64,000 nt of DNA from Gemmatimonadota bacterium (GTDB taxonomy: Bacteria > Gemmatimonadota > Gemmatimonadetes > Longimicrobiales > Gaopeijiaceae): assembly GCA_030428885.1 (NCBI GenBank), contig JAUIEJ010000008.1, forward strand, positions 62,001-126,000, given 5' to 3'. Positions within the stretch are counted from its first letter, which is position 1; every line of letters starts with the position of its first letter. This document shows, in pieces, positions 1 through 4,250 of the stretch. A program made the position numbers and the translations under genes. Below the pieces are notes generated by a model. That model made no database searches, had not been told where the DNA came from, and saw only the letters and a program-made list of their open reading frames with translations.

Positions 1-3000
1 GATCGGGCACGATCCCGTGGCGACGAAACGCCTCCACGAAGGCCACCCGGTAGTGATAGGGATCGTCGGGCACCAGGTCGAAGTCGGCGGTGAGGATCGC
101 CCGGAGGTACTCGAAGAAGGTCAGGTCCACCGGGGGCGTGTAGTCCAGGGCCCGGATGCAGATGTTGAGCACGTGGCTCGCCGACTTGGCGGCTTCCTTC
201 GCCATGCGTTCCACCAGATCGGGCGAGATGGCGCCGTCGGGGAGCACGCCGGAGCCGCCGGTGCTGAGCCGCAGCAGGTCGGCGGTGCGGGTGCGGTAGA
301 TGGCGAGGAAGGCGTCGAAGACCGCCGCCACGAGAATCGCTCCCCGGGCGTGGGGTGACGTGAGGCGCTCCAGGGCCGCGGGGTCCGGGGCACGGCGCGT
401 CCAGGAGCCGTTCTCCATGCGTCCGATGGCGTCCCGGAGCGCCCCCCGTCGGCCGGTGGCCTGGCCGAACTGCACTGCCAACTGGCCGAGTCGGGACTCG
501 GTCTCCAGGTCGCCCCGGGTCCGGGCGATCTCGCTGCGGAGCACGTCCTCCATGGCGAAGTGCTGCATGAGGGCCACGATGTCGGCGAACGCTTCGTGGA
601 AGGCCAGGACGTCGGGGTTGGTGGGCTCCCGGAACCGGGCGTGCATGCCGTCCAGGAGCGCGTGGGTCGTCTCGTGGGCGACGATGTCGTGGGAGAGACA
701 GGTGTAGACCCGCGTGCCCGGGACCACGGTGGCGGGGTCCGACGAGGTGGCGTCGAAGTAGCCGAACTCCAGGGCCACCTCGTCGGGGCTGTAGTAGGCG
801 TTGGCCTGGTGGTGGGCGTGAGGCCGGATCTTCAGGCGCTGGACGAACGTCCGGTCGTCGGTCTCGTCGTCGGGATTCGGCGCCGCCCGCCAGAGGGCCG
901 GGCGGCCCGTGGCCCGCTCGAAGTGTTCGATGGTCTTCATGGCCACGGCGTAGACCATCTGCTGGTGGAACTGGGGATTCCCTTCGGAGGGCGACCACCC
1001 GTCCCGGGCCAGGAGCCGAGGGTCGTCCAGATCGACCCCCCGGTGGCGATGCCCTGCGGCGTCGTAGTCGTAGACCGCCAGGTACTCGCCGATGGGACCC
1101 CGGTTCAGGGACTCCCACCGCACCGCCAGGGTGGCTTCGTTCACCCCCGCGGTCTCGAACCGGCCCGAGAGGCTGGGGTCCACGGCGTAGACTTTGAGAC
1201 GCCGGGTCGACGGAGAGGTGACGGGCGGGGCCGGGTCACACGCCCGGGGTGCTTCCCGCACCACCGTGTCGGGGGTGGGGCGGGGCGACGAGCCCACGAT
1301 GGTGCGGTAGCGCCCGGCCAGGTGCCGCCTCAGGGTGCGCGACGCGCCCGGGTCCTCGATGAGGGCGTCCAGGAGCCGACGCAGGGTCGATCGGGCCGAG
1401 CGGGGATCGCCCAGGGTCGAGAGATCGTGGACGTCCGACGGATCCGCCACCAGCTCCTGGACGTGGGGATTCAGGATCCAGCGCTGCGCCAGTTCGACGT
1501 TGAACATGCGCTCCCGGGGCGACACGTCGTCGATGCCCAGTCCCGTGAGCACCCGGAGCAGAGGTAGCCAGTCCGAATCGGAGTCGGTCTTCGGGAGGCT
1601 CAGCGCTGGTTGGATCGCCAGGGCGGCGTGGGCTCGGAGCACGCCCCACCCCACCCGGTCGGGATCGAAGGCGCGGCCGAGTCCGTCGGCCGTGGCCGCC
1701 GTGAACTTCAGGGCGTGGCGCACGGCCTCGACCCGCCGCCAGTCCCGGGGCAGCCGGTCCTTGTACTTCTCGTACCAGAGGGCCACCGCCGCCGCCACCT
1801 GGGGCGTGGCCGACGAGGTGCCGCCCCCGTCCATGCGCACCTTGTCGCCGCAGCCGAAGAGCGCCCAGGGCACGTTGGGCGAGTACGCCGCCATGGCCGC
1901 GAACATCCGGCTGCCCGGGCCGAAGTTGCCCTCCATGGTGAAGCCGCCCAGGTCGGTGTAGGGGCGGTGATCGGCCATCATGCCCGTGACGCCGATCACC
2001 CGTCCGTAGCGGGCCGGATAGACCAGTCGCCGGGTGGGCAGACCCCCCACGTTGTTCCCCGCCGCCGTGACTACACAGACCCCCGCTTCGTAGGCCCGGT
2101 CCACCGTGTCGCGCCACGTCTTCGAGGGGAGCCCCCCCATGCTCATGGACACCACGTCGCAGCCGGCGGCGATGGCGTGGTCCAGGGCGCGCGCGAAAGC
2201 GCTGGTCTTCAGGAGCACCACCGAGTCGGCGATGCGAAGGGGCACGACGTCGGCGTGGGGCGCGCCCCCCAGGTAGGCGTCGGCGAGGGCGGGGGAGCGG
2301 CCTCCCGCCAGGATCCCCAGCGTGCCCGTGCCGTGGCCCGTGTTGTCCAGGGGCCACGCCGACCCGTCGGGGTCGTGGGCGCTGGTGGGGTCGGCGTCGT
2401 CTTCCACGAAACTGCGCTCGAGGTCCCGGAGCACCCGCTCGGGGACCGCATCGTGGGCCCGGTCGTAGCCCGTATCGAGGTGGGCGATCCGGGTGCGGCG
2501 GCCCCCGAACGCCACGGCCTCCTGGGCGCGGCGCAATTGGGAGTACGCGTCGCCCAGGTGCCAGCCGTCCACATCCCCGCTGGCCTGGCCCCCGTCGTTG
2601 TTCTGGGGCCGGGCGTCGCAGTCGCCGTCGGCGGCCAGGCCCCGGTCGGGCGCGCGCTCGTGGGGCCGGAGATACACGGAGTGGACCAGGTCCGGCTCGA
2701 CGTGGAGCACGTCGGCCGGGGCCACGCCGAGCTGATCGGCGACCCGGGCGTGGGCCAGGTCCCAGGGCGTCTCGGCGCCGTGGGGGAGGTCGGCCAGGTA
2801 CCAGCGGGGCGTGTCGGCTGCGCTCAGCTCTCCGCTCCGGCCCCGCTCCTCGAAGAGCGGGCGAAGATGGGTGCGCCCCCCCGCGGCCCCCAGCGCCGCC
2901 GACGGTCGCATCTCCACGATGACGCGAGTGGGGGCGGCTCCTTCGGGAGGGGCGGTCCCCAGACGCTCGAGGTCGGGGCGCGGAGGGCGGCTCCTGCGGG

Positions 3001-3013
3001 CTCGATCGGCCAT
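1..3013 (-). CDS. Subtilisin (S8) plus HExxH metallopeptidase fusion, partial
   Basis: This frame is open from the ATG at 3013 to the left edge, giving at least 1004 residues with the C-terminus outside the window. The N-terminal half is a subtilase: Asp180 in AHLDTG, His227 in NTGHGTGT, oxyanion Asn320 in TAAGNN, and catalytic Ser400 in GGGTSSATP. The C-terminal half carries a gluzincin-type zinc site: His780-Glu781-x-x-His784 (AHETTH), then Glu807 in HEAFADI 23 residues on, the spacing and sequence style of thermolysin-like M4 peptidases. Residues about 440-640 match nothing I recognise. No signal peptide is visible (the start is MADRARRSRPP), so it is probably cytoplasmic or exported by another route. 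I read codons directly from about 1834 down to 1021 and found no stop. Two complete catalytic sites in one chain is unusual. Confidence 0.85.
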   Translation of the reverse strand, partial: MADRARRSRPPRPDLERLGTAPPEGAAPTRVIVEMRPSAALGAAGGRTHLRPLFEERGRSGELSAADTPRWYLADLPHGAETPWDLAHARVADQLGVAPADVLHVEPDLVHSVYLRPHERAPDRGLAADGDCDARPQNNDGGQASGDVDGWHLGDAYSQLRRAQEAVAFGGRRTRIAHLDTGYDRAHDAVPERVLRDLERSFVEDDADPTSAHDPDGSAWPLDNTGHGTGTLGILAGGRSPALADAYLGGAPHADVVPLRIADSVVLLKTSAFARALDHAIAAGCDVVSMSMGGLPSKTWRDTVDRAYEAGVCVVTAAGNNVGGLPTRRLVYPARYGRVIGVTGMMADHRPYTDLGGFTMEGNFGPGSRMFAAMAAYSPNVPWALFGCGDKVRMDGGGTSSATPQVAAAVALWYEKYKDRLPRDWRRVEAVRHALKFTAATADGLGRAFDPDRVGWGVLRAHAALAIQPALSLPKTDSDSDWLPLLRVLTGLGIDDVSPRERMFNVELAQRWILNPHVQELVADPSDVHDLSTLGDPRSARSTLRRLLDALIEDPGASRTLRRHLAGRYRTIVGSSPRPTPDTVVREAPRACDPAPPVTSPSTRRLKVYAVDPSLSGRFETAGVNEATLAVRWESLNRGPIGEYLAVYDYDAAGHRHRGVDLDDPRLLARDGWSPSEGNPQFHQQMVYAVAMKTIEHFERATGRPALWRAAPNPDDETDDRTFVQRLKIRPHAHHQANAYYSPDEVALEFGYFDATSSDPATVVPGTRVYTCLSHDIVAHETTHALLDGMHARFREPTNPDVLAFHEAFADIVALMQHFAMEDVLRSEIARTRGDLETESRLGQLAVQFGQATGRRGALRDAIGRMENGSWTRRAPDPAALERLTSPHARGAILVAAVFDAFLAIYRTRTADLLRLSTGGSGVLPDGAISPDLVERMAKEAAKSASHVLNICIRALDYTPPVDLTFFEYLRAILTADFDLVPDDPYHYRVAFVEAFRRHGIVPD

Positions 3014-3121
3014 GACGTCCTTCCCGGGTGGGCGCGGGGGCGGGCGCCGCCGGAGGAGGCGACGCCACCCTTCGAACATGCCCGCAGTCCGCGAAGGCTG
3101 TCCAGCGAAACGACCGACGCC

Positions 3122-3844
3122 CTACGACTCCCGGTACCGGTCCATCACCTGGTCGGCCTGGTCGTCGGACAGCGGCTTGACCGCCTCCCGCACCGTCACG
3201 CCCGACGCCCGGTCGGCTCGGGGAAGCATCCATCGGTACACGAGGTCCGGGCGCCGCTTGCCGGTGTCCCGGAGCACCCATCCCACCGCCTTGCGAATGA
3301 AGAACTCCCTCTCGCCCAGCATGGCGTCGGCGTACCGCGTGAACCGCGGCCAGTCGCCCCCGCCGTCCCGGAGGGGGCGCAGGTGGGTGAGGAGTGCCGA
3401 GCGGCGGATCCAGAAGTCATCGTCGGTTGCCCAGCGGTCCAGAATTGCTTCCTGGTCGGGGTGTCGGGCCAGGAGGGGACCGGCCACGTCCACCGCCAGG
3501 GCGTCGACGTACGCCCAGCTTCCCGCTTCCCGAAGCATGGTCTCGACCCAGGCCAGATCGTCGGGCACGAGATCGGCGACCCGGGCCACGGCCATGTGGA
3601 CCGCGGCCATGCGCAGCTCGTGGACGGGCTCGGCCCAGAGGGTGGCGATCCCGTCGACCAGGGCGTCGTGGCCCAGGGGACGCGCGCCCTTCAGGGCCCT
3701 CTTCGCGGCCGCGCGGATCGTGGGGACCGACGCGCCCCAGAATTCGAGATGGCTCTTGAGATACCGCTTCTCGTTCACGGCCCGCTCGGGGTCGCCGGCG
3801 GCGCGGAGTTCGGTTCGGAGGGCGGCGAGGTCGAGGGGTGTCAT
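3122..3844 (-). CDS. DNA alkylation repair protein, AlkD-like
   Basis: The 240-residue all-helical product matches the AlkD/DNA alkylation repair HEAT-like family. These glycosylases excise alkylated purines without base flipping. Recognisable pieces are the early KSHLEFWG, the helix containing AWVETMLREAGSWAYVDALA, FWIRRSALL, and the late EFFIRKAVGWVLRD, which place the conserved Trp/Asp surface of the family. Length is normal. The start ATG at 3844 gives MTPLDLAALR; an upstream extension would run through the intergenic operator region and is unlikely. It is divergent from the ArsR-SRPBCC pair with about 88 bp between start codons, so both could respond to a shared stress signal, but that is inference. 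Confidence 0.85.
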   Translation of the reverse strand: MTPLDLAALRTELRAAGDPERAVNEKRYLKSHLEFWGASVPTIRAAAKRALKGARPLGHDALVDGIATLWAEPVHELRMAAVHMAVARVADLVPDDLAWVETMLREAGSWAYVDALAVDVAGPLLARHPDQEAILDRWATDDDFWIRRSALLTHLRPLRDGGGDWPRFTRYADAMLGEREFFIRKAVGWVLRDTGKRRPDLVYRWMLPRADRASGVTVREAVKPLSDDQADQVMDRYRES

Positions 3845-3916
3845 GGCCACGCAAGCTCTGCGTCCCGCCTCCCCCTGTCCATCCCGGGACCGGCACCCTG
3901 GACATCGTATCGATGA

Positions 3917-3932
3917 TCGACAATATTGATGA
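3917..3932. promoter_or_regulatory. Imperfect palindrome, candidate ArsR operator
   Basis: TCGACAATATTGATGA is a 16-bp imperfect palindrome (12 of 16 positions symmetric) centred on AATATT. It is an AT-rich island in GC-rich DNA and directly abuts the ATG of the ArsR-type regulator at 3933. No Shine-Dalgarno sequence precedes that ATG, so the message may be leaderless or the operator may overlap the translation start. ArsR proteins commonly bind such AT-rich dyads in their own promoters. Confidence 0.45.
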
Positions 3933-4250
3933 ATGACGATATTTGAGGTGGTAGCGGAACCGAATCGACGTCGGATTCTGGACCTGCTCCGGGAAGGGGA
4001 ACGCCCTGCCGGTGACCTGGTGGCCGCGTTGGACGTGGGGCAGCCCACGGTCTCCCGTCACCTTCGTGTGTTGAGGGAAGCGGGCCTCGTGGCCGTGCGT
4101 CCCGACGCGAATCGTCGGCTGTACCGGCTCCAGCCCGAACGCCTGGTCGAACTCGAGCGCTGGATCGAGCCCTATCGTCGGTTCTGGGGCGGCCGCCTGG
4201 ACGCCCTCGAACGTCACCTCGACACCCTCTCTTCTCCCGAGTCCCCATGA
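3933..4250 (+). CDS. ArsR-family winged-helix regulator
   Basis: This is a 105-residue protein made almost entirely of one winged helix-turn-helix domain. It opens with MTIFEVVAEPNRRRILDLL, typical of the ArsR subgroup paired with SRPBCC proteins. The recognition helix is QPTVSRHLRVLREAGLV (about residues 39-55) and the wing is VRPDANRRLYRL. No metal-binding ELCVCDL-type Cys motif is present, so it is probably not a metalloid sensor. Its TGA overlaps the next ATG as ATGA at 4247-4250, so the two genes are translationally coupled. Autoregulation through the palindrome at 3917-3932 is likely but inferred. Confidence 0.88.
   Translation: MTIFEVVAEPNRRRILDLLREGERPAGDLVAALDVGQPTVSRHLRVLREAGLVAVRPDANRRLYRLQPERLVELERWIEPYRRFWGGRLDALERHLDTLSSPESP

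Follow-up and report, generated by a model that had tools for sequence, protein, structure and literature searches.

MBL-fold nucleases that are switched on by proteolysis were described in 2025 as common to several anti-phage systems, their activators being either trypsin-like proteases or caspases (PMC12799240). The MBL pro-nuclease of Hachiman, AVAST and canu becomes active once a partner protease has cut two gating insertions in it (PMC12799240). Peptidases of the S8 or zincin type are also found in the conflict operons known as S8/trypsin-NucA and zincin-associated systems, one type of which is coupled to a nuclease (PMC7159879).

Here we describe a gene at the edge of a 64,000-nucleotide stretch of DNA (the window) from a Gemmatimonadota bacterium, which encodes a subtilisin-type serine protease and a gluzincin-type metalloprotease in one chain. 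By analogy with the protease-MBL pairs, our best reading is that this fusion may have branched off from a new conflict module of the protease-MBL kind.

Results

A single gene for two proteases

The fusion frame lies on the minus strand, begins with an ATG at window position 3079 or 3013 and exits the window at base 1. Since the window starts at base 62001 of contig C20, the missing C-terminus, which the sequence-only reading of this DNA had proposed to recover from an adjacent contig, could be read directly from the same one: the stop codon lies 595 bases beyond window base 1 (L004:9405). The complete gene (C20:61405-65079(-)) encodes 1224 aa if translation starts at the first ATG and 1202 aa if it starts at 3013. 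Neither internal stops nor frameshifts occur in the 1224-codon frame, a frameshift between the domains having been named earlier as one of two grounds for doubt. The ATG at 3013 has AAGGA upstream and matches the start of the relatives, and the numbering of the sequence-only reading, which counts from it, is therefore exact: Asp180, His227 and Ser400 of its complete subtilase triad are D202, H249 and S422 from the first ATG, while HETTH 780-784 and the third ligand E807 are H802-E803-H806 and E829. The fusion ORF and both active sites are far above chance expectation. Features are listed in Table 1, with residues numbered from the first ATG.

Table 1. Features of the fusion gene in window coordinates
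Feature	Residues	Position	Strand	Basis or remark
Fusion gene, part within the window	1-1026 of 1224	1..3079	-	One open frame; last 198 codons before window base 1
Likely start ATG	23 of longest frame	3011..3013	-	AAGGA Shine-Dalgarno just upstream; homologues start near
I9/pro-subtilisin-like N-terminal segment (TRVIVEMRPS...EPDLVHSV)	~51-138	2666..2929	-	Relative's model vs 4jp8
Peptidase S8 domain	194-479	1643..2500	-	PF00082 E 2e-25; Z 34 to subtilisins
Catalytic Asp	D202 (D180 from 3013)	2474..2476	-	Conserved 25/25
Catalytic His	H249 (H227 from 3013)	2333..2335	-	Conserved 25/25
Catalytic Ser	S422 (S400 from 3013)	1814..1816	-	Conserved 25/25
Linker joining the two protease domains, mostly helical	480-622	1214..1642	-	Relative's model: helices, low-confidence joints
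Gluzincin-fold domain	from ~626	1..1204	-	Predicted fold; ~25 of its residues and the C-terminal domain outside the window
HETTH zinc site and catalytic Glu	802-806	662..676	-	H, E, H invariant in 65 relatives
Third zinc ligand, Glu of HEAFAD	E829	593..595	-	Aligns with NE..SD of M4 peptidases

The serine protease half

The N-terminal half is a member of peptidase family S8 by its Asp-His-Ser triad and its subtilisin fold. The S8 profile search that had been suggested gave a clear match to PF00082, and the triad is kept in all 25 aligned fusions. The fold was taken from a predicted model of the close relative L026 (1183 aa; pLDDT 84.5, pTM 0.59), in which the arrangement of the domains over the full length is unsure because of the pTM. 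This model matched uncleaved pro-Tk-subtilisin (4jp8) with a Z of 34.0 over 350 residues, and since the alignment runs from model residue 3, the N-terminus resembles the propeptide of pro-subtilisin. The propeptide-like segment is present in the complete S8 fusions of the alignment; Pfam I9 did not match the window protein. A hydrophobic N-terminal segment was absent from all 25 fusions checked, which agrees with the earlier remark that no signal peptide is visible, and the fusion protein is read as cytoplasmic for this reason. A patatin match at residues 515-629 (E 5e-4, below the cut-off) was set aside as spurious, the stretch carrying neither GxSxG nor DGG.

The metalloprotease half

The metallo half is covered by none of the models in Pfam, NCBIfam, PHROGs or PADLOC. 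The M4 profile search that had been suggested gave no Pfam M4 match in the window protein and only one among the 65 relatives (E 0.0044), and Pfam M36 matched neither the window protein, nor the relatives, nor any other protein of the same genome. In a sequence-only search of the PDB the metallo half produced matches only at E 0.1-2, thermolysin standing at about 0.7. Alignment by hhalign with an M4 profile built from six genomes gave E 5e-5 at a probability of 67% and set NAYY against NAFW, HETTH against HELTH and HEAFAD against NESFSD (metallo half first).

A metallo-only model of the L026 relative (pLDDT 90.7, pTM 0.93) was closest to the M36 fungalysin 7qp3 (Z 23.8, 321 residues, 4.2 A), followed by thermolysin 5fxn (Z 19.1, 284 residues) and then by the M1 aminopeptidases as the next family (Z about 10). 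In the numbering of this model, H184, E185, H188, H210, E211, D215 and H292 are invariant in the 65 relatives, and these include the H, E, H...H, E, D of the HETTH...HEAFAD site from which a gluzincin had been proposed. The gluzincin identity of the second half is thus weak by sequence profiles and clear by predicted fold: with HExxH and a Glu ligand in a predicted thermolysin-type fold, it is a gluzincin of clan MA(E). M36 is the closest fold, yet the protein is a member of neither Pfam M36 nor Pfam M4, so that the earlier term "thermolysin-like" holds for the clan and the fold and fails for membership of M4. Whole-model searches matched no known fold to the last ~190 residues.

A large family, often fused to S8

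The family to which the metallo half belongs is large and has no description in the model libraries used. Scanning a single genome for each species found at least 470 loci, and our search of the literature, thin on subscription journals and bioRxiv, found no description of the family. We analysed 94 loci, namely the best-scoring part of the scan together with plasmid and genome hits; since this sample is best-scoring and its seed consisted of eight rows, five of them fusions, the proportions given here are biased toward relatives of the window gene. The S8 fusion is present in 34 of the 94, in at least five phyla and with the same order and linker, which bears out the presence of both protease types in one chain. 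The fusion had been called uncommon; it is real, and its spread was understated, as it is present in dozens of species. Members not fused to S8 stand alone (~650 aa) or are joined to TPR-S (PF20308, L081) or to an LCAT-like lipase (L096:4480-5997), and one S8 fusion (L072) is also joined to a GDPD (glycerophosphodiester phosphodiesterase) domain (L072:7729-8730). An M14 carboxypeptidase adjoins one family member (L049:3114-5759), gluzincin domains occur in tandem in L067 and L091, and L084:1170-9482 holds two gluzincin and MBL pairs in tandem, one of them highly diverged. Phage contigs (L103-L130, up to 254 kb, and L150, LR756511.1, a 595-kb phage) encode proteins of ~370-600 aa with a distant gluzincin core (26-34% identity), HExxH...FHEAFxD being intact and no MBL gene adjacent.

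In the tree the window protein falls within a clade of 18 rows (SH-aLRT 100), which spans Gemmatimonadota, Acidobacteriota, Thermodesulfobacteriota, Deinococcota and Actinomycetota. The S8 fusion label requires at least 5 changes on the tree. Distances between S8 halves and between metallo halves are correlated (Mantel r 0.65, a value reached by none of 2000 permutations), which indicates that the two halves evolved together. The distribution is wide and sporadic: about 8 of 200 Gemmatimonadota genomes carry the metallo domain, none of five congeners does, and many family copies are plasmid-borne (PLSDB). When the congeners were compared for an empty site, one flanking gene was found in 2 of the 5, with different surroundings. 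Directly upstream of the fusion lies an AlkD-like DNA-alkylation-repair gene (window 3122-4048 (-)), which like the fusion is missing from the five congeneric genomes.

The MBL-fold partner of the relatives

In most sampled species the family is coupled in an operon to an MBL-fold gene. An all-against-all ORF comparison, with a recount by profile, showed that in 70 of the 94 loci such a gene, on the same strand, immediately follows the protease gene, mostly no more than 30 nt from its stop. The partner carries the motifs THxHxDH, GDA and HHGSHNAT and is ComEC-like, its PADLOC matches include LmuA, RTasMBL and Avs1a, and the motifs are separated by two stretches of low conservation. These ComEC-like motifs were found in the partners of relatives; a comparison with ComEC of the window's own genome detected no MBL motif in the locus retrieved.

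Upstream of the protease a patatin gene is present in 18 loci (15 of the 143 flanking proteins of MBL-bearing loci), and genes for Tle1-like/DUF2235 phospholipases also lie upstream in relatives. Models for E1-E2/JAB, NucC, RdrA and AbiEii match genes flanking the MBL-bearing loci, and a CBASS cyclase gene adjoins L008; since these defence genes are scattered, with one or two per model among the 143 genes, a defence island is suggested rather than shown. An E1-E2/JAB-like ORF (CBASS-type ubiquitin-like conjugation) is located 1.4-3.8 kb from the gluzincin gene in L007, L060, L061, L082 and L094.

The window's clade

Of the 94 loci, 24 lack the MBL gene: those of the window's clade, those of the L042/L051/L072 clade and three that are remote. 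For L027, L032, L033, L034 and L051 the contig ends too early for adjacency to be judged. The gene downstream of the window's fusion was considered as a partner and rejected, being convergent and unrelated. No MBL partner was found in the window's genome (95%-complete), either at the locus or genome-wide, and the genome-wide search was also negative in 14 of 16 other genomes with MBL-less loci and positive in 4 of 4 control genomes. The genomes of L031 and L046, which have MBL-less loci, encode an MBL homologue that is unlinked to the locus and may stem from a second module. The window's locus has no phospholipase and no defence-gene neighbours, and its flanks look metabolic. The flanks of the MBL-less loci are likewise mixed metabolic genes, and no recurring partner family of interest was found among 80 flanking proteins. 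Since the locus is without an MBL gene, we have not filed the window gene as a member of the protease-MBL class.

Discussion

The analysis supports the sequence-only reading of the gene as a whole: neither of the two findings named as refuting it, a frameshift or the want of a gluzincin in the second half, was borne out. Since the metallo family usually lies beside a gene of a DNA-cutting type, it may belong to an unrecognised, possibly anti-virus, system of cell control. By analogy with the described pairs, we infer that the family forms a conflict module whose MBL partner would be a target activated by cleavage. For the window gene in particular, the evidence is about evenly balanced for and against a soluble, cytoplasmic double-protease zymogen that would belong to such a module, probably anti-phage or abortive, with the protease of the window's clade as its probable effector.

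On this proposal the chain would run from an I9-like propeptide through S8, a helical linker and a gluzincin domain (clan MA(E), M36/M4-like) to a C-terminal domain specific to the family. A trigger would remove the propeptide of S8, and the serine and zinc proteases might then activate one another or have a common substrate. Where the MBL partner is present it may be a pro-nuclease switched on by cleavage, as in the trypsin- and caspase-MBL pairs. In the window's clade the double protease would act alone in the cytoplasm, restrained by its propeptide, and since there is no MBL gene it is itself probably the terminal effector, degrading proteins of the cell or of the phage. The role of the window gene would then be either abortive-infection proteolysis or some other regulated proteolysis.

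Other readings have to be weighed against this one. It is rather unlikely, though deserving of attention, that after loss of the MBL gene the fusion of the window's clade shifted to another intracellular role, such as regulated proteolysis or stress, with the MBL-bearing relatives alone serving defence. The clade of 18 rows is consistently without MBL, the genome-wide MBL search was negative in all but two of the 16 further genomes while finding its four controls, and defence neighbours are absent at MBL-less loci, all of which would fit such a shift; the clade is nevertheless sporadic over several phyla, as if by transfer, and a spread of this kind is more in keeping with a conflict gene than with a housekeeping one. 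We think it unlikely that the protein is an ordinary degradative or nutritional double peptidase that leaves the cell by a non-Sec route or upon lysis and has no part in conflict. The metabolic flanks of the window's clade, with no partner genes, would agree with that role, as would an I9-type propeptide, if the N-terminal segment is one, since this type is typical of exported subtilisins. It is opposed by the want of a signal peptide or hydrophobic N-terminus in 25 of 25 fusions and, among the relatives, by the MBL-fold gene in the operon in 70 of 94, by the fusion to TPR-S, a predicted intracellular sensor, and by CBASS genes nearby.

A role in the maturation of a peptide or protein (RiPP-like or cargo), in which S8 and gluzincin would process in succession and the MBL protein would be a hydrolase for tailoring, appears improbable. 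S8 maturases exist, the S8 half gives weak matches to the QhpE and PatA models, and there is a precedent in the FxSxx zincin peptide-processing systems (PMC7159879). Against this, only MBL and phospholipases recur as partner families among ORFs of at least 80 aa; phospholipases fit poorly with maturation, and the MBL protein has the motifs of nucleases of the ComEC type. Finally, that the assembly joined two unrelated genes has next to no probability and is refuted by the order and linker shared by 34 loci and by the co-divergence of the halves.

Returning to the conflict module, a more specific form of it, which we hold only tentatively, is that the gluzincin family, its S8 branch included, may constitute a third protease-MBL immune class, tied to phospholipases, and that in the window's clade, which is without the nuclease, the chain of two proteases would itself be the effector. 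If true, a zinc-protease family that is often fused to S8 would be a new class of MBL activator with ties to phospholipases, and a testable function would be available for many proteins annotated as "hypothetical" or only as "S8 family serine peptidase".

Among described peptidases, the window fusion has the triad, the fold and perhaps the N-terminal propeptide fold in common with the S8A subtilisins and pro-Tk-subtilisin (MEROPS), and differs from them in having no signal peptide and in carrying a C-terminal second protease of a different catalytic type. The metallo half shares the gluzincin fold, HExxH with a Glu on the next helix, and an upstream NAxx with M36 (fungalysin) and M4 (thermolysin) of MEROPS; unlike these families it has no Pfam M4 or M36 match and no export signal, its spacing is longer, and an extra C-terminal domain of ~190 residues is present. 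Compared with the S8/trypsin-NucA and zincin-associated conflict systems, no NucA, vWA, MoxR or VMAP was seen here (PMC7159879).

The described protease-gated MBL pro-nuclease pairs with which we compared the module are those of HamMAB Hachiman, Avs1, Lamassu LmuA and DRT RTasMBL, together with the canu caspase-nuclease (PMC12799240). Unlike in those pairs, a gluzincin, either fused to S8 or not, stands in place of a trypsin-like protease or a caspase, the gene order is protease then MBL, phospholipases are often upstream, and the window's clade is without MBL. As in those pairs, the relatives couple a protease gene with a ComEC-like MBL-fold protein, and TPR and defence neighbours occur. The poorly conserved stretches between the MBL motifs of the relatives are, moreover, like the gating insertions of HamM (PMC12799240).
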